DNA of 64,000 nt from Eutypella sp. D-1 (taxonomy: Eukaryota; Ascomycota; Sordariomycetes; Xylariales; Diatrypaceae). This document shows, in pieces, positions 5,794 to 58,198 of the stretch (position 1 is the first letter of the stretch; each line of letters opens with the position of its first letter). Where the stretch lies: NCBI GenBank assembly GCA_023313575.1, contig JAJTTP010000031.1, positions 124,001 through 188,000 on the forward strand, read 5' to 3'. The notes below the pieces were generated by a model. That model saw only the letters and a list, made by a program, of their open reading frames with translations. It did no database searches and was not told the origin of the DNA. The position numbers and the translations under genes were made by a program.

Positions 5794-7154
5794 TGATTCA
5801 GAAATACTGCTAGACTTGCCAGGATCACTTAGACATCTCGAGACGCCTTTCCCCTGGCAGCAATGGACGGACGGCCCTCCCCACGGTATGTTTTTGATCC
5901 CACCTCAGCCCTCGAGTTCCTGAGTCCGTCAGCCCGTTGACTAGCTAGCATCCTCCTCCTAGCTATGCTAGCTAGCCTGGATACTTACTTATGTATCTAA
6001 GTTGCCAAGTGAGCCGTAAATCTGACAGGATACCTGAATGAATTTTCCACGTGGCAGTACCCCCCCCTCCCCCCCTTGTCTGGGGCCCAATGGGAGGCGC
6101 TACGCATCTTGCATACATATACATAGCCGGCGGTAATATCATCCCTTATATGAACCGGGGAGTATGTATGTAATACGGTCTTCGGGATGGCCGAAGTTCT
6201 GACATGGGGATTCCAAGCTTCGACCATACCAACGTATTATATAGCAAGGTAACCCCTACCTACATATTTATCTACTACGTAGGTAGGGTACTGGCTATTG
6301 AGTAGGCAGGTCGAATAGGGACTCTGGTAAACTGTGAATATGAAGCTGAAGCTTCCGGGCCTTGTTATACTCTATATCCTAAGTATGTAAGCATGAAACG
6401 GCGTCATGCTACCCAACTGGACACTGCTTGCCCACTTACCTAAGTGACCCAGATAAGCAGGTAAGTGCTTACATGTGAGATAGGTACTTCCGTTGACCAA
6501 GGAGCTTGCAACATTCGAGATACCCAGGACATATCGGTTGAACTACTAGAGAAAAGGAGTTATATAATAGTATTAAACAACGAACCTCCTACCTGATCAA
6601 ACTGGAGATACTATATTTACCCGGACAACATAAAACGTCCTAAAATGACCTTGGAGATCCGGGAGATCCACCGATCCTAGGCTTAGGTAGGGAGGTATGT
6701 TATATGTTAGTCTAGGTATGTATTACAGCTCTAGGGTATATACATACATACCTGTACCTACTTACATATTACACATCCATCTAACCTGCTGCTACCTAGC
6801 CCTATTAAAGCTCAGGGTAAAGCAGTAACCCAGGGGTTAGCAAAGCGCGCGCTTAAGAAGTGGGTCCAGCTAAAGCTTCCCCGTTCCACTGGAGTCCCTT
6901 GTCGCGGTATTTCTCCACAATTGGAAGTAACCCCTGCTAGGTTTCAACTAAGATTTTTTTTTTCTTACTCTTTTTTTTTTGGCCTTTCTGCTTGGTCACT
7001 GGCTGATGGATGGTGAGGCTCGCATTATATCACATTACTTGATCAGAAGGAGGGAAAGTCCTAATAGGTCCCCTACACGTTATTCGTGACGAGCCTGTTA
7101 AAGAAGTACGAGCAACGATCTGGGAAGTAGTAGTATAATATTTGAACTACTAAG

Positions 7155-8822
7155 ATGCCGTCGTCCGTGGATGGGGATGATGACCCACGCATCGACTCCG
7201 ATGATGCTTCATCGGCGTCTGAGATATCGGCAGCATCCCAGCCAAGCGAAGGGAGCGACTCGGGGTCTGAATCCGACTCCCTTGATAGTCTTGGCTCTCG
7301 CAAGCGACGTAAGATCGCAGATGCGGGCACGGACACCCCCCTTGCGAAGAAGAACCCGGTAGTAGTGTCTTCTATACACGCGCCGTCCAGGATCAAACGA
7401 AAAACCGGGAACGACTCAGCACCGGCCAGCAAATCACAGCCGGAAACGTTACCCGTCACTACCGCCGAGGCTGCCGCTGCATCCGCGGACGCTGTTCCGG
7501 CCGCCAACCCCACGCCCAGCCGCAATGCAACGTTCGAGTCCCTGCAGCTGCGGCCCTGGCTCGTCCAGTCCCTGAGGAACATGGCCATCCGGCGCCCCAC
7601 CGGCATCCAGGCGCGGTGTATCCCCGAGATCCTCAAGGGCCGCGACTGCATAGGCACGAGCCGGACGGGCTCCGGAAAGACGGTAGCCTTTGCCGCCCCG
7701 ATCCTGCAGAAGCTGGCTGAGGACCCGAGCGCCATCTACGCCGTCGTCCTGACCGCCACGCGCGAGCTGGCCCTGCAGATCTACGAGCAGTTCAAGGCCA
7801 TCTCCGCGCCCCAGAACGTCAAGGCCGTCCTGGTCACCGGCGGCTCTGACATGCGGCCCCAGGCCATCGCCCTGGCCCAGCGCCCCCACGTCGTCATCGC
7901 CACCCCCGGCCGCCTGGCCGACCACATACGCTGCTCCGGCGAGGACACCATCTGCGGGCTCCGCCGCGTCCGCTTCGTAGTACTCGACGAGGCGGACCGT
8001 CTCCTAGCCGCCGCCGGCCCCGGGAGCATGCTGCCCGACATCGAGGAGTGTCTCGGGGTCCTACCGCCCTCGACGGAGCGGCAGACACTGCTGTTCACGG
8101 CGACGATGACGCCCGAGGTGCGGGCGCTCAAGGACATGCCGCCGCGGGCGGGCAAGGAGGCGGCGTTCGTGTGCGAGGTGGAGACGCGGACGCTCGCGGT
8201 GCCGGCGACGCTGCGCCAGATGTACGTGCAGGTCAACGTGACGCACAAGGAGTACTACCTGCACGCGTTCCTGCTGACGGCGCGCAACGCCGCCCGCTCG
8301 TCGCTCATCGTCTTCTGCAACCGCACCTCCACCGCCGAGTACCTGCACCACCTGCTGCGGCTGCTGGACCACCGCGTGACGTCGCTGCACTCGCGGCTGC
8401 CGCAGCGCCAGCGCGTCGATAACCTGGGCCGGTTCCGCGCCGCCGCCGCCCGCGTCCTCGTCGCTACCGACGTCGCCTCCCGCGGCCTCGATATCCCCGA
8501 GGTTAGCCTCGTCGTCAACTACGACGTACCGCAGGAGCCGGACGATTACATCCACCGCGTGGGACGAACGGCGCGGGCTGGCCGTACCGGCGACGCCGTC
8601 ACTTTCGTCGGCCAGCGCGACGTCGGTCGCGTCCACGCCATCGAGGACCGCGTCGGCTCCGCCATGGTCGAGTGGGAGGAGGAGGGCGTCAACCTCGAGA
8701 CCCGCCTCGTCAGGGACCACATCAAGACCGTCGCCGAGAAGAAGAGGGAGGCCCTCCTCAATATCGAGGAACACCGCGAGGTCGGCGGCAAGCGGAAGCG
8801 GAAGAAGCTCCGGCTGGAGTGA
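7155..8822 (+). CDS. DBP8: DEAD-box ATP-dependent RNA helicase Dbp8 (18S rRNA / 40S subunit biogenesis)
   Basis: A 555-residue intronless protein. The first ~125 residues are acidic, Ser-rich and Lys-rich with nuclear-localisation-like basic clusters. The helicase core follows with all motifs in order: Q motif ([20 protein letters not shown]), motif I SRTGSGKT (K175), Ia [11 protein letters not shown], Ib TPGRL, II DEAD (278-281), III TAT in [43 protein letters not shown] (H467 onward). TAT in place of SAT and the short C-terminus ending in [10 protein letters not shown] fit Dbp8 rather than other DEAD-box paralogues. The family acts in the nucleolus in early 18S rRNA cleavages. Motif I has Ser where Ala is usual. 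The coding sequence is strongly GC-rich compared with its flanks. The start codon at 7155 begins a typical acidic leader; no other upstream in-frame candidate is needed. Confidence 0.93.
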
Positions 8823-31665: not shown

Positions 31666-32835
31666 TCAAACTATTGAGCCCGTAGCTTCATTTTCCTGGG
31701 GAATGTCGTATAGCCGGAGAACCTCAATGGCATTACCTCCCATGACAGCTTTGGCACCGTCGCTACCGTCTCCGAGTGCTTTCTTAACTGCTTCCGCATT
31801 CCATGTCATACTCTCCCACTCTCCCTGCTCGTCGCTGGTTAACGGAGGGAAAAAAGGGTGATCCGTTCCGAACATGAGCCTGTCCACCCCGCTAGCATCT
31901 ATAGCAGCTTTGAGTCCCACGTCCGAGTATATCACGGCGTCGAGATAGACCTGTTCTTTGAGGACTTGCCAGATTGTCCGTCGGCTCGCCTTGACTTTTC
32001 CTTCCCCTACTAGATGGCGGTCATGCACAATGCAGCTCTCGATTCTCCCGGCCAAGAACGGCAGCGTCCCTCCGCTGTGTGCTAGGAGCAATCTCAAATC
32101 TGGTACCTGATCAAAGACGCCGGCTAGGTACATCCTAGCCACCGCAATCGTCGTCTCCATCGGGAACCCCAGGGCCAGTGGAAGCACGTGGCCATATTCC
32201 TCTGTAGCCCTCGGCCCCCATACCTCGCTCGGCAGTCCGTAATGCGGATGGAGGAAGATGGTCAACTTGTTGGCCGCAAGCGACCTGAATACCGGTATCA
32301 GTGCCGGGTCATCGAGCCCCTTGCCTAATCCCGATGTACCGAGGATAACGCCCCTGCAGGACCTGAGACCCTTGATGTGACCGATCGATGCGAGCAGTGT
32401 CTCGGGCGGCGCAGTCAGCGGGAGCGTGGCGAAGAAGTAGAGCCGGCCAGGCGCGTCCGCACACATGTTGGAGAACTCTTGGTTGACCGACTTGGCCGTT
32501 TCGCCCGCTTCTTCCGAAGCCACGAAGTCGAGCCACGGGTTCGCGAGCGATATGACGGAGATGTCGATCTGGTGGGTGTCCATGAAATGTAACTTCTGCC
32601 CCAAGGACGAGTAATGGCTCGTCACTGGCCGGCCCGGAAGGTTCGAAGAAGTGGCATCCTCGCTGATCTTCTCGAGGGCCTCTGCTTCTGCTGGCAAGAT
32701 GATATAGCGGGGATCTTTTGCGCCGGCGAATCTCCGTATGAATGGGATGCTTTTCCTAGACTCTAATAACTGAACATACGCTGGCGGGTACATGTGTGTA
32801 TGAATGTCAACGATGCGCAAGTTTGGGGACCCCAT
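31666..32835 (-). CDS. Isoorotate (5-carboxyuracil) decarboxylase, amidohydrolase superfamily
   Basis: A 389-residue intronless protein of the ACMSD-like amidohydrolase family. It closely resembles, from memory, the fungal isoorotate decarboxylases described from Cordyceps/Metarhizium (about 375 residues), which convert 5-carboxyuracil to uracil and CO2, the last step of thymine salvage. Visible features: DIHTHMYPP with metal ligands H12 and H14, the family stretch LHFMDTHQIDISVISLANPW (residues 82-101), GRLYFFATLPL, CRGVILGTSGLGKGLDDP, metal-ligand H196 in FLHPHYGLP, EYGHVLPLALGFPMETTIAV, H253 in LAHSGGTLPFL, and D325 in MFGTDHPFFPP. It is transcribed away from a thymine-7-hydroxylase gene whose start codon is 985 bp away. 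This supports the assignment over a generic ACMSD or gamma-resorcylate decarboxylase. Confidence 0.87.
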   Translation of the reverse strand: MGSPNLRIVDIHTHMYPPAYVQLLESRKSIPFIRRFAGAKDPRYIILPAEAEALEKISEDATSSNLPGRPVTSHYSSLGQKLHFMDTHQIDISVISLANPWLDFVASEEAGETAKSVNQEFSNMCADAPGRLYFFATLPLTAPPETLLASIGHIKGLRSCRGVILGTSGLGKGLDDPALIPVFRSLAANKLTIFLHPHYGLPSEVWGPRATEEYGHVLPLALGFPMETTIAVARMYLAGVFDQVPDLRLLLAHSGGTLPFLAGRIESCIVHDRHLVGEGKVKASRRTIWQVLKEQVYLDAVIYSDVGLKAAIDASGVDRLMFGTDHPFFPPLTSDEQGEWESMTWNAEAVKKALGDGSDGAKAVMGGNAIEVLRLYDIPQENEATGSIV

Positions 32836-33820
32836 CTTGATCTACCCCGGGACGGATAGTCGTCGGTCACGAAGCAGAGATAACGCGGAGGTAGCCTTGA
32901 CCCCAAAGAAAATGGGTTATTAGGGCACCAGGAACCTGAAATTTAGCGTCTTGAAGAAGCGTCTTTAACGGTACCGATCCGTCTGAATGAGACGACGGCG
33001 AACAGATAAGAATCATGCCTGACCGGTGGCTTCGATACCTTAATCGGTAAGTTGCCTAAACCTCCCTACCTCCCAGACTCTGTCCCCCAATCAACAGACT
33101 TCGATTATTACCCCACTCGTAACTTCCGGCCTCTCCCCCCCCTGAAACCTTGCCCTCCCCCCCCTCTCAAACCTCCTTACTTATCTACCCGGGACCGGAA
33201 GGGTATCTTATCCTCAAAAGCTTCCCCCCTCCTTATCTATAGGGCGGGGAGGTCATACATATGACAGTGACATTCATTATATGGTCACACAGGTTACATC
33301 TATGCCATCGTGCCACTGTTGCAATACGTTATCGCTAGCTTCCTAGGTAAGTCAGCTCGTCTGACTTTCTTGCTAGTAAACACCGGGAATGGTGATGATA
33401 AGGAAACGGCTCTGCCCTATACCCTACACGTTAACTTTTGTACCCCGTAGTCTCTCCCTAGACCGTTCAACTACATGCATCGAGAGCAGAATATATATTC
33501 GCGTTGGGCTGCATTGTGTACACAAGGCTTCTTGCCAATTATAGCTTCGCCTTGGAATTAGACATGTCACATAACCTTACCTCGGTGGCTTGATTCAGAT
33601 TCTCCCGTCCGGCAGCGCCCCCCTCCTCTTTAAAGTTTAAGACCGCTTCCGCTTTGCACACCCGATAATCACGTATTTGGGCGTATCTTGTATTCGATTC
33701 CTACCTTGTCTTGCTTTCTGTGATATAATCGTGCGACCAGAACTATCACACTAGTGAATCGGGACACTGTATCCCAACCCTTGCTTATACCTTGACCGAG
33801 CCAAAAAAAAAAAAAAAAGA
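32836..33820. promoter_or_regulatory. Shared divergent promoter region of the thymine-salvage gene pair
   Basis: These 985 bp separate two divergently transcribed start codons, so both promoters must lie here. The middle part is C/T-rich on the plus strand (33060-33240). A run of 16 A (33803-33818) ends two bases before the hydroxylase ATG. I cannot name specific transcription-factor sites with confidence. Confidence 0.5.
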
Positions 33821-35064
33821 ATGGAGGCCACAGCCGTGAAGGGTGAGGGATTGGTGATCCCGGTATGACCAAGTAACCCATGACCAGCCAGCGAAACTGA
33901 TCATGGTTTGACTTACCGTTTTGCATGGAATGAAAATGACAGCTCATCGACTTCTCCGCCTTCCTGCACGGCAACCCCGCGCAGCGCAAGGCGACGGCGG
34001 ACGCGATCCTGCACGGGTTTCAGACCGCGGGGTTCATCTACCTCAAGGGCCTGCCGATCGCGCCCGCGGTGCGTCGGCACGTCTTCGAGACGTCCGCCCG
34101 GTACTTCCGGCTGCCGACGGAGGCGAAGCTGGCGCACAGCTGGACGACGCCCGAGGCGAACCGGGGATACTCGGCGCCGGGGCGCGAGAAGACCACGACG
34201 CTGACGGACTACGAGGACGTCGGAAGGTTGCGGGACGCCGCGCCCGACCTCAAGGAGAGCTTCGAGATCGGTCGCGAGGGCGAGCCGGGCCACCCGAACC
34301 ATTGGCCTGATGAGGGGCAGGAGGAATTCGCCGAGCTGGTCGGCTTCCGCCGCACGATGGTCGACTTCCATGACACGTGCAAGGCGCTGCACATGGAGGT
34401 CATGAGGGCCATCGCTGTCGGCCTCGGCATCGACGAGTCGTGGTTTGACGCATACACCGACGTGGGCGATAACACCCTGCGTCTGCTCCACTACCCCGAG
34501 GTCCGGAAGGACGTGTTTGAGATCAACCCGGGCCAGGTGAGGGCCGGCGCGCACAGCGACTATGGGTCTATTACCCTGCTCTTCCAGGACGCCAGGTGAG
34601 CGCATCCATAGCTGTCGACGGGCCGATGTTGCGTTTGCTTGTCTACTAACCTCGCCTGACAGGGGTGGGCTTCAGGTCCAAAGTCCGACGGGTGCGTTCG
34701 TTGACGCTGTCCCGATCGAGGACACCTGCGTCGTCAACGCCGGCGATCTTCTCGCCCGGTGGAGCAACGACACGATAAAGAGCACTATCCACCGAGTCGT
34801 GGAGCCTCCTGCCGCCGACGGCCCTGTCCACCCGGCACGATACAGCATCGCGTGAGTCCATCTAATCCCCAAGGCATCTCATCACGCCGTCCCCTATAAC
34901 ACCTGGGCTGACATGACGCGATGCCATAAAGCTACTTCTGCAATCCGAACTATAAGAGTTATATCGCCGCCATTCCCGGCACATATGCTACCGAGAAGGA
35001 TCTGAAGTACGACGGAATCAAGAGCGGGGAGTATCTCGTCCAGAGACTGACTGCCACTTACTGA
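33821..35064 (+). CDS. Thymine-7-hydroxylase (thymine dioxygenase), Fe(II)/2-oxoglutarate-dependent
   Basis: Four exons: 33821-33862, 33943-34595, 34663-34851 and 34932-35064, with introns of 80, 67 and 80 bp. The protein has 338 residues, close to the Neurospora enzyme's length as I recall it. The family oxidises thymine successively to 5-hydroxymethyl-, 5-formyl- and 5-carboxyuracil. Exon 1 encodes only 14 residues ending GLVIP and joins in frame to LIDFSAFLHG, the usual start of the fold. The stretch WTTPEANRGYSAPGREK is characteristic of thymine hydroxylases. The iron triad is H218 and D220 (GAHSDYGSITLLFQD) and H275 (STIHRVVEPP). R291 (RYSIAYFCNPN) would bind 2-oxoglutarate. The protein ends YLVQRLTATY. 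It pairs head-to-head with the gene for the next enzyme in the pathway. A related isopenicillin-N-synthase-like oxygenase is less likely given the substrate-specific stretches. Confidence 0.93.
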
Positions 35065-44463: not shown

Positions 44464-45303
44464 TTAAACCTCCTGGATCTCCCTCAGTCTTCGCAGCGTC
44501 GATCGCATGGCGGCGGCAGCGGCGGTCCTGCGCAGTTATTATTAGCAACTATTTCCCTTCCCTCTTGCGTATGTAGTAGTAGCTTGGCCCATATCGCGAA
44601 TTGTGTGCGCTTTATGTATGTAGGAGCCTTGCTGGGGTCGTGGTTGAACGTACGATACTGTGTAAGCGCCACCAGCGACGGTCTTGCCGCAGCTCTTGCA
44701 GTCCCAGATACCAACGGCGCCACGCTTGACGGTGACCTTACCGCAGAAGGTGCCTTCGTGTAGGGATTAGTATCAAAGTTTTCGTCTCGTTCCGAGGGTG
44801 CGTCAATAGCTTACACTACACGTATAATGTTAGTTTATCTTTTATTTTGGTTTGTTTTCCTCTTTTGATAGCAAAGCTTGCGCCCAGGAGAGAGAGATAC
44901 ATATGGAAGATATGAAGCTGAATATTTCGAGGCCGTTATACTTACTGTGTACTTGGCGTGCTGAGTGATCTCCATCTTCTTCACCTGCTTCCGCAGAGAG
45001 GCACCATATCTATTCGAATCGAACACCAAGAGTTAGTGGGTTTGTTCCCAGCACCAGCAAAACATCCATCAGAAGGAAGAACATCGGCCGGAACATCGAC
45101 GAGAAGAGCATCGAATGAAGGCTTCGGGGGATCAATCGAGGAGCGGTAGTAGGGAGATGTCGTACCGGGTACCGTATTTGCCGACAACGCCGACCTTCCT
45201 GTTCACCAAAATTATTAGCATCGTTGTCTTTCCTTTTCCCCAACTCCGGCGTTTCGTTCGTTCGTCTGTGGGTTTTCCCGACTTACTTGGTTCTCTTGGC
45301 CAT
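44464..45303 (-). CDS. RPL43: 60S ribosomal protein eL43 (L37A family), six exons including a one-nucleotide exon
   Basis: The protein has 92 residues, the normal length, and is a zinc-ribbon protein of the large subunit. Exons on the minus strand: 45303-45287, 45198-45166, 45009-44946, 44815 (one base), 44753-44654 and 44527-44464. Introns are 88, 156, 130, 61 and 126 bp. The product starts [17 protein letters not shown], continues [21 protein letters not shown], then C-T-F-C-G-K. It carries the four zinc ligands C39, C42, C57 and C60, and ends [19 protein letters not shown]. Without the single T at 44815 the frame is lost between Thr38 and the downstream exon, and Cys39 cannot be encoded. 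With it, T plus GC makes the TGC codon. Both introns around it have canonical signals: GTAAGT ... CTAAC ... GTGTAG, then GTAAGC ... CTAAT ... CGAAG. No other gene overlaps. The gene is very intron-dense: five introns in 279 coding bases. Confidence 0.92.
44815..44815 (-). other. RPL43: Putative one-nucleotide microexon (T) of RPL43
   Basis: On the minus strand the sequence reads GTGTAG, T, GTAAGC: an acceptor dinucleotide, one base, then a strong donor. The branch-site A of the upstream intron is at 44830 (CTAAC, 14 bases before the intron end) and that of the downstream intron is at 44767 (CTAAT, 13 bases before its end). The base is needed for frame and for the conserved Cys39. This is an inference from signals and protein conservation, without transcript evidence. 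Confidence 0.82.
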
Positions 45304-47655: not shown

Positions 47656-49167
47656 ATGTCTTTTAAGAAGCATGATCGCCAGTACGACATCATCGTATTT
47701 GGTGCGACTGGTACGTTACTCAATATCTAGCTACCTATGGGATGTTTCGGCGGGGTATCAAATCTAATGGTGGTGAACGTCGACAGGATATACCGGTCTG
47801 AGGACAGCCGAGCACATTGCAACAGAGTTTCCGACCAGCTTGCGATGGGCCGTGGCCGGGCGCTCGGAGGAAAAGTTGCGTCATGTGGCTAAGGAATGTC
47901 GGGCTCTGAACCCGGACTGCGCGGTGCCGGGCATCGAAGTCTGCAACCTGAGTAGCGCGGATCTCGCCGCGCTAGTGAAGAAGACCTTCATCCTTATCAC
48001 GACAGTCGGGCCGTACGCGAAATATGGCGAGCTTGCGTTCAGGGCGTGCGCGGAGGCGGGCACGCATTACTTCGATTGCACGGGCGAGGCCGTGTGGACT
48101 ATGGACATGATCGAGAAGTACGAGGCGATCGCAAAGAAGACTGGCGCCTGCATGTTTCCCCAGAGCGGACTCGAGTCCGTGCCGTCCGACTTGTTGACTT
48201 ACCTGATGGCATCGCATATCCGCTCCGAGCTATCGGCTCCGACCAGCGACGTCGTGGTGGGCCTGCAGGAACTCCGGTAGGTGCAAAATCAGAAAAGGAA
48301 CAACGGCAACGACGAGAGCTAAGAAAGGAACAGGGCGGCACCTTCAGGAGGCACTTTGGCTAGTGCCATCGGCATCTTCGAGACGTATCACTGGAAAAAG
48401 ATTCTCAAGTCACACGAGCCTTACGCCCTCTCCCCCGTTACGAATACGAAGTTAGCGCCCCGGCCCTCCCTATTTACCCGGTTAACGGGACTCTACGAGA
48501 TCCCCAACCTCGGGCTCTTCACGAAGTCCGTGACGTCGGGCGCGGACGCGGCGATCGTCATGCGGACCTGGGGACTGACGAAGCAGGAGCCGGGGCTGGA
48601 GGGCCAGTTCTACGGGCCGAACTTCACGTACCGCGAGTTCAAGAAGGCGCGGAACTTCCTCAACGGCATGGTCTTCCACTACACGCTGACCGTCGTGGGC
48701 ATGCTGATGACCTTCTGCTCGCCGTTCCGCAGCCTCCTGCGCAAGTTTGTCGTGAAGCCCGGAAACGGCCCGTCGAGGGAGCAGAGCGCCAATGAATACG
48801 TTGAGTTTCGCGGCATCGCGACGGCGGACCGGGAGGCGGGCGCCCGCAAGCAGCAGGCTCTGTCTAGGGCGTGGCATAGCGGGAGCATGTATATCCGTAA
48901 GTCACTCATTCACTTCACTCAACACTCAACTCTACTCGCCCGCCCGAATTATATGTTTGTGTGAAACTGTTAATCAGGCCTCTGACTAATGATCTCGGGA
49001 CACACACAGTGACGGCGAAGTTCCTCGGTCAAGCTGCCCAAACCTTATTACAAGACGATCTTCCGCTGAAAGGTGGTGTCTACACGCCGGCGTGTCTCGG
49101 ACAAGGATACCTGGATCGCATGGAGGAGCAGGGTTTCAAGACTGAGGTCAAGATCATAGATGCATAA
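47656..49167 (+). CDS. Saccharopine-dehydrogenase-like NAD(P)-binding oxidoreductase (SCCPDH / trans-enoyl-reductase-like)
   Basis: Four exons: 47656-47710, 47787-48276, 48334-48896 and 49010-49167, with introns of 76, 57 and 113 bp. The protein has 421 residues. The N-terminus is a Rossmann fold with IIVFGATGYTG (glycines 16, 19 and 22) split by intron 1. It continues RWAVAGRSEEKL, then TTVGPYAKYGE, HYFDCTGEAVW and CMFPQSGLESVPSDLL. These stretches are typical of SCCPDH and of the mycobacterial trans-acting enoyl reductases. It lacks the features of the true lysine-pathway Lys9 enzyme. A hydrophobic segment near residues 300-325 (FHYTLTVVGMLMTFCSPF) could associate with a membrane. The C-terminus (LTAKFLGQAAQTLL, then GVYTPACLGQGYLDRM) matches the family's usual end. 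The substrate is unknown. No polyketide synthase lies nearby, so a secondary-metabolite role is not suggested by context. Confidence 0.87.
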
Positions 49168-50350
49168 TCGTAAAATTAACTATAGCATGTCAGCTGTGGG
49201 GGGGGGGGGGTTAACCTCCGAGCGGCAATCGATATATGACTATATAATATGACTATAATGAAAATAATAACTGAGCTTCAGAAGTCTCTTAATTCACTCG
49301 GTGTCGAGATAGTTATTTTCAGCGTCGTACATTAATGGGTTGTTCATCATGCTTCGGTCATACCTATAAAAGGGCACTGCACCGTCCATGCTAACTGTTA
49401 AAACTACCACTACCACATGTAGAACTCATATTTATCCATGGATATATATATATGGCTACTCTGCCTAAGAACCTAAGTAGGTGAAGTACAGGGCAGGTTG
49501 TTCAGGGGTTTAGGAGCGTGGATCCGGATTATGAAATGGGACCCCGGGGTGCGTTGCGTTGCGTTGCGCGTTAGGTCTGGTTAGGTTCGGTTCGGTGGTA
49601 GGCACTCCTTATACAGATACAGAACAAATACGGGGCGTAGTTGCGGATAACGACGTCATAGTGAATAAGCTAGTTAATCAAAGTAAAGCCTTTAAATGCA
49701 TCTTCTGGTTACAATGTTAGCTACCTCGCTGATATAACGGGCTTGGCATCATGACTTGCACCGACCGCGATCTATGCTTATATTGGAGAAATAGCTACGT
49801 ACTTTCTCCTACCTACTTGTAGTAGATAATTGTTACGAGAACAATTTCTGAGAAAAAGCATCCACGGATGACATCTTCTACATACCTAGTTAGACAATTG
49901 CCATCTTTAATAGCTAATAACTACAGCTTAGGAACGTCGAATAACTCCCCTAATTGTTTTCTTACCCCGAGCGAAGTCTACCGCATTTTTTTCGTGTCCT
50001 TTGTTATTGCGTTTTACAGGATTACGATATAGTGTTTGTTATAAAGTTTCAATTGGCGTGTTAAGACGGGAAGTACGCGTTAGATCGATCCATCATCACC
50101 CATCGGTGCAGGTGGTGGTGGCGGTGGCGGTGGTAGACTTAAAGTCGTTGTGTTGTCTTGAAGTTGTCGGAGCACATTTAATAGCAGAGGAAAGAAAGCT
50201 AGGAGACATTTATCGTCTGTCTTGACTTAACCTAACAACCTGTATAACTTGACTGAGCAACGTTGTGCGCCGCGCCGGTTACAAGTGGTGTTTGTCCTTG
50301 GTTGTCTTTTCTTGTCCTTTCTTGACACTTGGTGCTTCTTCGATCTCACG
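49168..50350. other. Spacer between two plus-strand genes, about 1.2 kb
   Basis: It contains a G-homopolymer near 49198-49210 just past the oxidoreductase stop, a GCGTT repeat near 49551-49568, and the RMD1-type promoter and 5' leader. The reading frame of the next gene is open upstream to 50249, but the added 34 residues look like untranslated leader. Confidence 0.5.
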
Positions 50351-52294
50351 ATGGCTTCATCACCGCAACAACCGGGGAGCCCGACCACCCCGACCACCCC
50401 AGCCAGTTCCACCTCAGAACGCGCCCCTCTATTAAGACAAGACAGCGCGAGGCCTGATACAGCACGCCCAAAGGCTTCTCGTAGCGTTACTTTCAACCCG
50501 AATCCCGTTACGCGAACCATTGACCCCCAGCCATTTTCCTCTTCCTCCTCCTCCTTCAGCTCCTCGCCGCGCGCTGGGTCCTTAAGCTCTTTTGGCAACG
50601 CTCGTCCCAGCTCAGCTTCATCATTATCATCCAGCTCCGCCCACCACACGCCCGGATTATCAAACCTAAATACCCGTCTACGCCGCCGCAACAGCTATGG
50701 CTCTACTTTCACCTCCCTTCCCGCCGCCGCCAGCTCCGGCGCCAAGATTGGTCCCCAGCGTAGTTCTAAAAACGCCCAGAAACTCAAACTGCTCCCGACT
50801 CTCGAATTCGACGAAGGCTCCCCGGACGAGGAGAGTGGTAGAGATGTATATTCACAGTACACCCGAATCAAGGACCCTATGGCAAGACGGGATGCCGCGA
50901 GGCTAGGCAAGGCAGATCGGGATAGGCTCCCCAGAGTAACTGCCTACTGTACGGCAAATAAATATCAGATGGAAGGTCTCATGCGCTTTCTCAAGGGAAA
51001 AGCCCGGACGCGGTCGACAAACCCTAAGTTGATAGATGAATGCATCTACTCGCCATATAGTTACGGGATGGGAACAACGGGCACAGAACGTGCCGAGACA
51101 GGCAATCAGATACAAGAACGGCCAATAGCCACATATGAAAGGAGACATTCCACAGGCCAGGTGGAAGGGAATTTAGAATCACTCCGGAGGGATCAGAGGG
51201 ACCAGAGGGATCATCTCACCGATCTACATTCGGACCATCAGGATGACAACTCGTCGGATACACAGAACGGGTTTAACAGTGGAAGGGATATGGATAACGA
51301 TCTCGCCTACCCTTCTAACCCGGATGACGAGAGTGCCATACACGATCCGCCAGCCTCCCGAACACAAGGTGTCGACTTCGACACGCATGTGCATACACCT
51401 GAGGTGTTTCTGTTCGACTATGGCGTCGTCGTCATATGGGGGATGTCGCTTGCACAGGAGCAACGGTTTCTGAAGGAAATCGCCAAATTCGGGGAGGAGA
51501 AGCTGGAACCAGACGACGTGGAGACGGAATGCTTCAACTTCTACTATACGCGCGAATACCAGCCAAGGATCTACAACGATTTTATCACTCTGCGGGATAA
51601 GAGTAATTACATGACTAAACTGGCCATATCCCATGCGGTAGCGCAAAGTGTCAAGGTGAGTTGGCCCATGACAGACGAAGCTGCTTGCCTATCTGGCGAC
51701 GTCTATCCATCCATACCGTACCAGCGAGTGTTTATATCTGACTAACGAACCCCTACCACAGACATCCCTTTTCGAGGAGCTCATCGCCTCGACGGTCGAC
51801 ACGTGCAAAGACATACCCACGCAGATCGCGACCACGGGCAAGATCAACCTATCGCGGCAGCAGATCAACATGCAGATAGGCGAGCTCTTCATCCTCCGCA
51901 TCAACATCCACCTCAACGGCAGCGTGCTCGACACGCCCGAGCTGTTCTGGGTCGAGCCGCACCTCGAACCCGTTTACCAGGCCGTACGAAGCTACCTGGA
52001 GATGGACCAACGAGTAGGTCTGCTCACGGAGCGTCTCGACGTCATCGCCGACCTCCTGGCTGTGCTCAAGGACCAGCTCAGTCACGGTCACGGGGAGATG
52101 CTGGAGTGGATAGGTATGACCCCCTTCCCCCCCCCCCCCCTTTTTTTTTTCCCCTCCCTCGTAATCTTAGTTAGACCTTAGCGTCGCCTTTACTAATCAA
52201 TGTCTTGAATACTACAGTCATCATCCTGATCGCGGCCGAGATCCTCGTGGCTGCTATCAACATCGTCGTGGACCTCTACGCCGGAGTCGACTGA
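50351..52294 (+). CDS. RMD1: Rmd1/Sif2-like DUF155 membrane protein
   Basis: Three exons: 50351-51655, 51762-52113 and 52218-52294, with introns of 106 and 104 bp. The protein has 577 residues. The first ~170 residues are disordered and Ser/Pro-rich (MASSPQQPGSPTTPTTPASS, then APLLRQDS). A conserved stretch follows (DRLPRVTAYCTANKYQMEG and CIYSPYSYG). The DUF155 domain starts around residue 351 with EVFLFDYGVVVIWGMS, then YYTREYQPRIYNDFITL, KLAISHAVAQSVK, and helical heptads (QINMQIGELFILRINIHLNG, then LTERLDVIADLLAVLKDQLS). The extreme C-terminus is one hydrophobic segment, residues ~553-570 (VIILIAAEILVAAINIVV), a likely membrane anchor. Yeast Rmd1 is needed for meiotic division and S. pombe Sif2 interacts with Sad1; the biochemical role is not established. 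The start at 50351 has a good context (ACGATGG). The second intron contains a long C-then-T tract. Confidence 0.87.
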
Positions 52295-53783: not shown

Positions 53784-55238
53784 CTAGTCGTCAGCCGGCC
53801 CTTCATTCTCCTCCACCTCGGTCTCGTACTGGTCCGCGTCGGCGGCGGCGGCGCTGCCACCGCGGCGTGAGGGGGCCAGGTCGGCTGCATCGGCATCGGC
53901 CTCGCCCATCTCGACGTCGTGGTCGTCGTGATCGTCGTCGTCGCCCAGGATGGAATCGTCGAAGCGGGCAGACCGCGCGGCGACGCTGCTACCGCCGCCG
54001 GTGGCGCGATGACTCGCGCCGAAGTTGCTATCGCGGCCGCGCGAGCGGGAGCGCGCGGCGGCCTCCTTCGTGCTCCGCTTGAAGGCCTCGCGGTCCTCGC
54101 GCCACTGGTACAGCTCCTGCTCGTGGCGGGTCTGGTACTCGGCGCGCTCCTTGTCGGGCAGGTCCTTCCAGCCACGGGCCAACTCCTCCTCGAGGCGGAA
54201 CTCGCCAGCGGCGATCTTGTCCTTGTGCTTGGCCTGCAGAATGGGTCGCATCTCCTTGCAGTATTCCTCGAAGGCGTTGCTCGGTCTCTTAGCCGGTTTC
54301 GGGACTCCGTTGCTGGCACCGCCGCCGCGACCGGCACCGCCGTGGGACTCCTTCGGGGGCTCGAGCTGGGAGTGGGAGAAGGCGTCAGAGCTCGGGGATA
54401 GGGTGGTCAGGTGTTGGTTGATGAAGGTCGCATTATTGCTGCCGCCGCCTTCGCCGGCGGGTAGTGAGGGCTTTCGGTGTGCACGTTTAGTTCTCAGCGG
54501 CTTATCCTGGGGCTGGATGATATATTAGAATATCACATTCTCGGGGACCTCATGATTCTTTCTTTCTTTCTAAGGGAGTTAAAGTAGAGAAGAGACATAC
54601 GGTTGGGGGCGGGCTAGGGCTGCCGTCAGAATCCTCTACGTTGGTGCTGGTGCGGCGGGAGATCTGCTCGAGTAAGAATGCGCGCTCGAGACGACTCTTC
54701 TGGATTTGGCGCTTCAGTCGCGTGAGGCGGAGGCGATAGGCGTCGTTCTCGTCCTCGATCTCCTTGGTGCGCTGCTTCAGCTGGACACATTTTCTGCGAT
54801 AGGCCTCCTCGACGGTGGGAGGTAAGGAGGGAGGGTTTGCTGCTGCTGTTGGTGTTGTAGCAGGGATGACGATCTCTTCGTTAGTAGGCGTGTCCATGAT
54901 GGTTTTTGAAATGTTGATAATCTCTCATGTGGGTGATGATGGGGGGGGGGGGGATCAAAAGAGGAGGGAAACGGGGATAGATGTTTTTGGGGGGGGGAAG
55001 AAAGGGAGCAAGAAGCAGAAGCAGAAGTAGAAGCAAAAGCAGAAGTAGAAAAGCAGGTATCGAAGTGGGCTGGAATGAGACAAGTACATGGTATGGTATT
55101 ATGATGTGTAACATGTATGTAGGTTTGCAGTAAGTTTAGCAAGTTTAGCAAGTTTAGCAAGGTACGTAACATTTGTTGGGATGAAAAGCGAATGGGAATG
55201 GGAATGAGAAAGCATGACTTACCAGTTTGAGGCGCCAT
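53784..55238 (-). CDS. NHP10: HMG-box subunit of the INO80 chromatin-remodelling complex (Nhp10/Nht1-like)
   Basis: The certain exons are 54897-54601 (or a slightly different 5' end) and 54506-53784, joined by a 94-bp intron with GTATGT donor and CCCCAG acceptor. The first exon carries a coiled-coil: TVEEAYRRKCVQLKQRTKE, then RLKRQIQKSRLERAFLLEQ. The second carries RTKRAHRKPSLPAGEG, FINQHL, then an HMG box: PKPAKRPSNAFEEYCKEMRP, QAKHKDKIAAG, LARGWKDLPDKERAEY. The C-terminus is acidic with an Asp/His run (DDDDHDDHDVEMGE). This order matches fungal INO80 HMG subunits as I remember them. The start is uncertain. The downstream ATG at 54897 (MDTPTNEEIV) gives 339 residues. A 16-base first exon at 55238-55223 (MAPQT plus one base, followed by GTAAGT) can be spliced in frame to an acceptor ending at 54924 or 54876, and is chosen here tentatively. 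The gene is divergent from CCT8. Confidence 0.82.
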
Positions 55239-56295: not shown

Positions 56296-58198
56296 ATGTC
56301 TCTCAGCATTCCCAACGCCCCGAACGCCGGTCTGTTCAAGCAGGGCTACAATAAGTAGGTCGTCTTCCTGATATTGATATCTATATTGATATTTCATCGC
56401 CCCAGCCCCACCATCGTCGCCCTCATCGTCCCCGTCACCGTCACTGTCACTGTCACACTTACTTTCACTCTTGCCCTCACTCTTGCCCACACCATCAGAT
56501 ATCACCATTTGCTAACCACAATCATCCCCCTTCCTCACAGCTACGACTCCGAAGATGGCGCCGTTCTACGAAATATCGATGCCTGCAGGACCATCGCCTC
56601 CACCGTCCAAACCTCCTTAGGTCCTTATGGCCGGAATAAGATCGTCATCAACCATCTGCAGAAGATGATTCTCACTTCTGACGCCGCTACTATTCTCAAG
56701 GAGCTCGATGTCGTCCACCCCGCAGCTAAGCTCCTCGTCATGGCCAGTCAACAGCAGGAGGCAGAGATGGGTGACGCTACCAATCTTGTTATCGTCCTCG
56801 CCGGTGAACTCTTACGGAAAGCCGAAGACCTTTTACGCATGGGCCTCAAGACCGCCGATATCGTCACTGGCTACGAGCGTGCCCAGGCTTCTGCTCTGGA
56901 GCTTCTCGAGGAGCTCGTCGTTGACAAGGTCGAGGATGTCACAGCTCAGGATCAGCTCAGCAAAGCAATCCGCACTGTCGTTGCCAGCAAGCAGAATGGC
57001 AACGAGGATTTCCTAGCCGACCTAGTCGCCGAGGCCGTTCTCGCCGTCCTGCCCAAGAACCCCGCCAACTTTAACGTGGACAATATCCGCGTCGTCAAGA
57101 TCATGGGTGGCAGTTTAGAACAGAGCAGGGTTGTCAAGGGCATGGTCTTCCCTAAGGAGCCTAATGGATCCGTCAAGAAAGCCACCAAGGCCAAGGTCGG
57201 TGTCTTCTCCTGCCCCATCGACACCAGCCAGACCGAAACCAAGGGTACCGTCTTACTTCACAATGCCAAGGAGATGATGGACTTTACCAAGGGTGAGGAG
57301 GCCCAGCTCGAGACTGCCATCAAGGAGCTGCACGATGCTGGTCTCAGAGTAGTTGTCGCTGGGTCTACCGTCGGCGAGCTCGCCATGCACTTCCTGAACC
57401 GCTTTGGTATCCTCGTCATCAAGATCCAGAGCAAATTCGAGTTACGTCGGGTCTGCCGCGTGGTAGGGGCCACGCCGCTTGCCAGACTTGGCGCCCCCAT
57501 GCCTGATGAGATGGGGTCCGTTGACGTTGTCGAGACTCTCGAGATCGGCGGCGACCGTGTCACCGTCTTCAGGCAGGAGAGCGAGGTCACCCGGACGGCG
57601 ACTCTTGTCCTCCGAGGTGCCACCCAGAACCATCTCGACGATATCGAGCGGGCCGTCGATGATGGTGTCAATGTCGTCAAGTCCATCACTCGCGATCCCC
57701 GACTGGTACCGGGTGCCGGTGCAACGGAGCTGCAACTCGTCGAGAGAATACAGGCCCAGGCCGACAAGACGCCTGGCCTGGCCCAGTATTCCATCAGGAA
57801 GTACGGCGAGGCGTTTGAAGTAGTCCCGAGAACGATAGCGGAAAGTGCAGGACTAGATGCCACCGAGGTGCTAAGCAAGCTTTACACGGCACACCACAAG
57901 AGGGACGACTGGACAACTGGCGTTGATATCGAGGTAAGAAGACTTTTTCCGCCCCATTGAAAACCAATAGCAGCAGGTAAAATGGCATGGCTAACATGAC
58001 GTATAGAACAACGACAATACCGGCACTCTTGACGCTAAGAAGGAGGGAATCCTGGATCTTATGGTCACCAAGTCGTGGGCCATCAAGCTAGCGACGGAGG
58101 CGGCGCGGACCGTGCTCTCCGTTGACCAGATTATCGTCGCCAGGCAGGCCGGTGGACCGAAGCCGCCCGGTCCCAACCCGAACTGGGACGAGGATTAA
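56296..58198 (+). CDS. CCT8: T-complex protein 1 subunit theta (CCT8), cytosolic chaperonin
   Basis: Three exons: 56296-56354, 56541-57933 and 58007-58198, with introns of 186 and 73 bp. The protein has 547 residues, normal for CCT subunits. It is a group II chaperonin subunit of the TRiC ring that folds actin, tubulin and other proteins. Exon 1 encodes MSLSIPNAPNAGLFKQGYN, the family's theta-type N-terminus. Motifs seen: TSLGPYGRNKIVINHLQK, ILTSDAATILKELDVVHPA, the nucleotide-site loop as GDATN (most subunits have GDGT; the theta subunit commonly differs), KIMGGSLEQSRVVKGMVF (theta/CCT signature), LVPGAGATELQL, and the C-terminal VLSVDQIIVARQAGGPKPPG. It ends NPNWDED. Splice junctions keep the frame exactly, and intron 1 has a GCTAAC branch and CACAG acceptor. 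Confidence 0.95.

Follow-up and report, generated by a model that had tools for sequence, protein, structure and literature searches.

A probable one-nucleotide exon at a zinc-ligand codon of the fungal ribosomal protein gene eL43

In the gene for ribosomal protein eL43 (RPL43, L37ae), a single base, T44815, is in all likelihood a genuine nuclear exon of one nucleotide, flanked by two GT-AG introns that would be recognized by intron definition and removed consecutively. The gene lies in a window of 64,000 nucleotides, the whole stretch of DNA that was analyzed, and an exon-by-exon search found this one locus only in the 48.5 Mb genome (72 contigs). In eL43, 192 nt separate codon 38 from the remainder of codon 39, and T44815 followed by the GC of the next exon gives TGC, which is Cys39, as the first-pass annotation had read it. 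The coding sequence including T44815 comprises 279 nt and encodes a 92-aa protein (..KYTCTFCGK..) that contains the four-cysteine zinc motif, matches PF01780 at full length (profile 1-85 of 85, 137.3 bits) and aligns over 1-91 or 1-92 to the best solved eL43 chains. Without T44815, translation goes out of frame at codon 39.

The gene model and the neighboring open reading frames are listed in Table 1. The seven window ORFs with Pfam matches that neighbor eL43 are ordinary fungal genes.

Table 1. Features of the eL43 gene and Pfam-matched ORFs in the window
Feature	Position	Strand	Remark
eL43 coding exon 1	45287..45303	-	ATGGCCAAGAGAACCAA
eL43 intron 1	45199..45286	-	88 nt, GTAAGT..CTAAT..CAG
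eL43 coding exon 2	45166..45198	-	
eL43 intron 2	45010..45165	-	156 nt, GTACGA..CTAAC..TAG
eL43 coding exon 3	44946..45009	-	last codons TAC ACA, final = Thr38 (ACA)
eL43 intron 3	44816..44945	-	130 nt, GTAAGT..CTAAC..GTGTAG
eL43 one-nucleotide exon T (predicted)	44815..44815	-	base 1 of Cys39 codon TGC; sole parse yielding conserved protein
eL43 intron 4	44754..44814	-	61 nt, GTAAGC..CTAAT..ACGAAG
eL43 coding exon 5	44654..44753	-	starts GC ACC TTC TGC (GC of Cys39 codon)
eL43 intron 5	44528..44653	-	126 nt, GTACGT..CTAAT..CAG
eL43 coding exon 6 + stop codon	44464..44527	-	
ORF, DEAD helicase	7146-8822	+	Pfam
ORF, Amidohydro_2	31666-32841	-	Pfam
ORF, DIOX_N	33940-34599	+	Pfam
ORF, saccharopine dehydrogenase NADP domain	47777-48280	+	Pfam
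ORF, DUF155 (RMND1/Sif2)	50231-51745	+	Pfam
ORF, HMG box	53784-54524	-	Pfam
ORF, Cpn60_TCP1	56359-57960	+	Pfam

A single base would complete the eL43 reading frame

Positions, splice signals, the need for the base and the uniqueness of the parse can all be read directly from the DNA. T44815 directly follows an AG and directly precedes a GT (GTGTAG T GTAAGC), and introns 3 and 4 each have their own donor, branch motif and acceptor. These elements, the phase 0 end of exon 3 after Thr38, the GC-ACC-TTC-TGC start of the next exon and the lengths of the flanking introns agree to the base with what the first-pass annotation had proposed, as does the distance from branch A to intron end, which is 14 nt in intron 3 and 13 nt in intron 4 compared to 16, 23 and 14 nt in the other three eL43 introns. 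In both introns the acceptor is the first AG past the branch; that of intron 4 is AAG. Measured against the consensus CAG|GTAAGT, the GTAAGT donor of intron 3 matches at 6/9 positions. The donor of intron 4 matches at 5/9 in its precursor context (AGT|GTAAGC), the same as the donor of intron 5, and at 7/9 once intron 3 is removed (CAT|GTAAGC).

We enumerated every single intron that could connect exons 3 and 5 (GT- or GC-AG, at least 40 nt). Only 38 of these 258 parses are open at full length and none gives the conserved protein; the four-cysteine spacing is found in one open parse only, a GC-AG intron that keeps intron-derived residues in its sequence. One intron would have to be 191 nt long, and there is no GT-AG intron of that length between the two exons. 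When two introns were allowed (GT-AG, at least 30 nt, separated by an exon of 1 to 90 nt), 57 of 767 parses proved open, five had the cysteine spacing and exactly one was identical to the conserved protein, namely GTAAGT-GTGTAG, T, GTAAGC-ACGAAG. The earlier suggestion that a one-nucleotide exon would be required at this position is thus supported by the enumeration.

The bare AG-T-GT motif is expected 0.11 times per 192 nt and YAG-T-GTRAGY 0.0015 times, both counted over 528,000 strand-bases with the eL43 site included. A pattern with both branch motifs (CTAAY-N4-20-YAG-N-GTRAGY-N20-50-CTAAY), composed with the eL43 site already in view, has four matches on both strands of the genome, the eL43 site among them, versus two for the reversed-pattern control, and these counts amount to roughly 4 to 8 in every million one-strand stretches of 192 nt. 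The three other matches were read individually, and none resembles a one-nucleotide exon: the sequence is stop-rich or low-complexity at L024 and L026, and at L025 (G000:C20:21300-23300, minus strand) a by-eye reading explains the GTAAGT by an ordinary intron. In L025, a gene that we take to resemble RNA polymerase II subunit 2, the GTAAGT of a late intron follows a chance CTAAT..TAG within a coding exon and so mimics a one-base exon. A splice-site model built from unsupervised patterns did not discriminate, with 133 matches in 264 kb versus 163 in a Markov control.

Weighing a base error, a single intron and nested splicing

Comparison with relatives bears on whether the missing base is a property of the gene or of the assembly. 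The eL43 protein has its top matches in Xylariales fungi, with the highest identity among the matches listed to Monosporascus ibericus (97%). Our homologue set consisted of 144 distinct records among the matches listed from three protein searches, which reported 2482, 12 and 1885, and C-x2-C-x14-C-x2-C is kept in 142 of them. The two records without the motif are both Monosporascus models, and both are broken exactly at the Thr38/Cys39 joint. P0003 (M. ibericus DL764_008029) has 93 aa and reads KYT-KG-TFCGK, and P0045 (Monosporascus sp. DL770_009474; four member sequences on four contigs) has 86 aa and reads KYT-VTVKR. In P0045, 85 of the 86 residues are those obtained from the window DNA when the T is disregarded and the intron is made to end at the next AG that fits (GGTAAG). 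The same one-base gap therefore seems to be present in other species, of the genus Monosporascus, although the broken models may have another cause; read in this way, the T itself may be conserved in relatives.

As deposited, the two Monosporascus eL43 records are without the Cys39 zinc ligand and were apparently mis-annotated at the one-base exon. Published Monosporascus assemblies, strain CRB-9-2 among them, were made from Illumina reads and annotated by AUGUSTUS with Neurospora crassa settings; they measure 70 to >100 Mb and have a mean GC content of 39.53% (PMC7407469). The GC content of our window, and likewise of 200 kb more, is about 51%.

A base or assembly error at ACGAAGGCACC would mean that in the true genome TGC directly follows the acceptor, that one ordinary intron is present and that the internal AG-T-GT arose by chance. 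One missing base would yield an identical frame gap, and AG-T-GT alone is expected by chance at the frequency given above, but the fuller YAG-T-GTRAGY is far rarer, even with the site itself in the count, and the pattern with both branch motifs exceeds its control by four matches to two. Because the two Monosporascus protein clusters come from other assemblies and break at the same joint, we consider an error in the window, which the first-pass annotation had itself named as grounds for rejecting its reading, very unlikely. We give still less credence to a single intron whose donor lies 4 nt downstream (ACAGTAA|GTATAA) and which runs to ACGAAG, leaving a divergent but working eL43 of 93 aa with Val-Ser in place of Cys39. 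That parse is open, and the M. ibericus model P0003 is likewise 93 aa long and carries two residues there, Lys-Gly. However, it forfeits the first zinc ligand, which is kept in nearly all of the homologues listed, and its donor, TAA|GTATAA, agrees with the consensus at 4/9 positions versus 6/9 for GTAAGT.

A stwintron, some other nested intron or translational frameshifting in place of an exon is the least credible of these readings. Stwintrons have been described from other Xylariales, and according to the abstracts those of Hypoxylaceae and Xylariaceae resemble the eL43 arrangement in having two adjacent introns removed consecutively. In the [D1,2] type, however, an internal intron splits the donor of an external one and no exon base remains, whereas eL43 keeps one base and both donors are intact. 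With T lying between the introns and no internal intron splitting an external splice signal, eL43 falls outside the stwintron class, and the genome has no excess of the strict [D1,2] pattern (13 matches versus 14 in the control). More generally, nested introns removed in two steps cannot leave the needed T, since ACA is followed by G and AAG stands immediately before exon 5. Two introns in series, one on each side of T, are the only arrangement that leaves it. Frameshifting at a joint without the T would give Ser (AGC) or skip a residue, never Cys. A recursive splice site, or zero-nucleotide exon, is rejected as well, in that AG does not directly precede GT and T intervenes.

Order of splicing and origin of the introns

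For a one-nucleotide exon at T44815, splicing and its order are what we infer. Both introns would be recognized by intron definition and removed in two successive reactions, because a single base has no room for two assembled complexes at once. The 130-nt intron would leave first, its GTAAGT donor pairing with the first AG beyond its branch. The 61-nt intron would then follow, as CAT|GTAAGC should be a better U1 target than AGT|GTAAGC, and the joining of ACA, T and GC would create the codon for the zinc ligand. The gain in donor match upon removal of intron 3 favors this order, so that the upstream intron is probably spliced first; this refines the first-pass annotation, which had envisaged two ordered steps as one option, for splicing that is still predicted. 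Skipping all 192 nt in one step is disfavored, since the acceptor is AAG and lies farther away.

An AAG acceptor is nevertheless usable in this genome, as an intron of L038, presumably a Rho-type GTPase gene, ends in AAG. This comes from a length-constrained method applied to Ras-family genes (51 matches listed; 19 exon pairs), which serves only to show that such an acceptor occurs: 14 of the 19 pairs were solved, 12 of those with one solution (nine of the 12 without an assumed indel), and five had no solution. Folding gave no sign that structure draws the eL43 splice sites towards each other; 185 of 200 shuffled sequences fold as well or better (z +1.29). A snoRNA within the eL43 introns was also rejected, as nothing in the entire window reached the gathering threshold of an Rfam family.

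The origin of the two introns was approached with a query from the start of exon 5, which had 12 matches in total, all of them short metagenomic proteins. Each reads without interruption from MEITQH, or the residues corresponding to it, through Cys39 and so has no intron there, although genes with an intron at that point may be less readily predicted as fragments of this sort. In 11 of the 12 the sequence goes on beyond TVS or VVS with residues that are not conserved, as if the last intron had been retained. As all of these outgroup fragments are without introns at Cys39, deep conservation is excluded, and both introns look like lineage-specific gains around Monosporascus, which we regard as a lead. 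An introner element was rejected as their source: in a search that skipped simple repeats the 192-nt block matches only itself in the genome, with no similar copies elsewhere. We found no insertion or flanking repeats at the block, the single repeat family there being a 17-nt one with two copies, within exon 5. For Fusarium, Nelson and Syed propose that a base was lost at an intron edge and a cryptic AG-N-GT adopted (PMC12940212). By analogy, this model would fit eL43 too, starting from a single intron before TGC.

One-base exons elsewhere and what eL43 adds

One-base exons are rare, as the first-pass annotation held, but they are already established, fungi included, and eL43 would add to a handful of known cases. 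The closest is Fusarium CYP621A, where a one-nucleotide exon is documented by RNA reads and 20 Fusarium orthologues (PMC12940212). As in eL43, one base lies between two short introns of a nuclear fungal gene, is needed for the frame and a conserved motif, and was missed by gene models. There, however, the base is a G in a P450 glycine codon, in a protein whose physiological role is unknown, whereas in eL43 it is the T that begins a ribosomal zinc-ligand codon, predicted here from sequence. One-nucleotide exons in Arabidopsis APC11 (PMC4674806) and plant VPS55 (PMC8831610) are likewise flanked by GT-AG introns and mostly missing from annotation, and they are constitutive; these plant exons have experimental proof and are conserved across the land plants, in contrast to the predicted, fungal and lineage-specific exon of eL43. 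Single-base exons in Candida snoRNA host transcripts (PMC5033589) also lie between nuclear fungal introns and undergo ordinary splicing, but those transcripts are non-coding, with snoRNAs in their introns, whereas eL43 encodes a protein. A one-nucleotide exon has been reported in placozoan mitochondrial cox1 (PMC5436844), and human RPS24, a ribosomal protein gene, has three longer micro-exons (PMC11162997). The 2026 Fusarium paper presents its exon as the first of one nucleotide in any fungal gene (PMC12940212), but the Candida single-base exons had already been described in 2016 (PMC5033589).

Among the matches listed from the open-licence literature, we found no one-nucleotide exon in any ribosomal protein gene, and it is this location, in a single-copy ribosomal protein gene, that makes eL43 unusual. 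We can also imagine, as an unlikely extension, that the one-base exon arose when two introns were gained with one base between them, became fixed in the whole Monosporascus-related lineage and makes obligatory ordered splicing a dosage valve. If so, a one-step skip of the 192 nt would give a frameshifted mRNA, and the efficiency of one-base splicing would set ribosomal protein output.

Taken together, these observations would place the shortest possible exon in a single-copy ribosomal protein gene. Genes of this kind are strongly expressed and normally not dispensable for cells, so that accuracy at T44815 would have to be high. The Monosporascus eL43 records, which look wrong at the zinc ligand, illustrate how gene prediction can silently break universal genes. 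Because inclusion or skipping of the T decides the entire downstream frame, eL43 would be a natural reporter for the way in which two spliceosomal reactions come together at one base and for their order.
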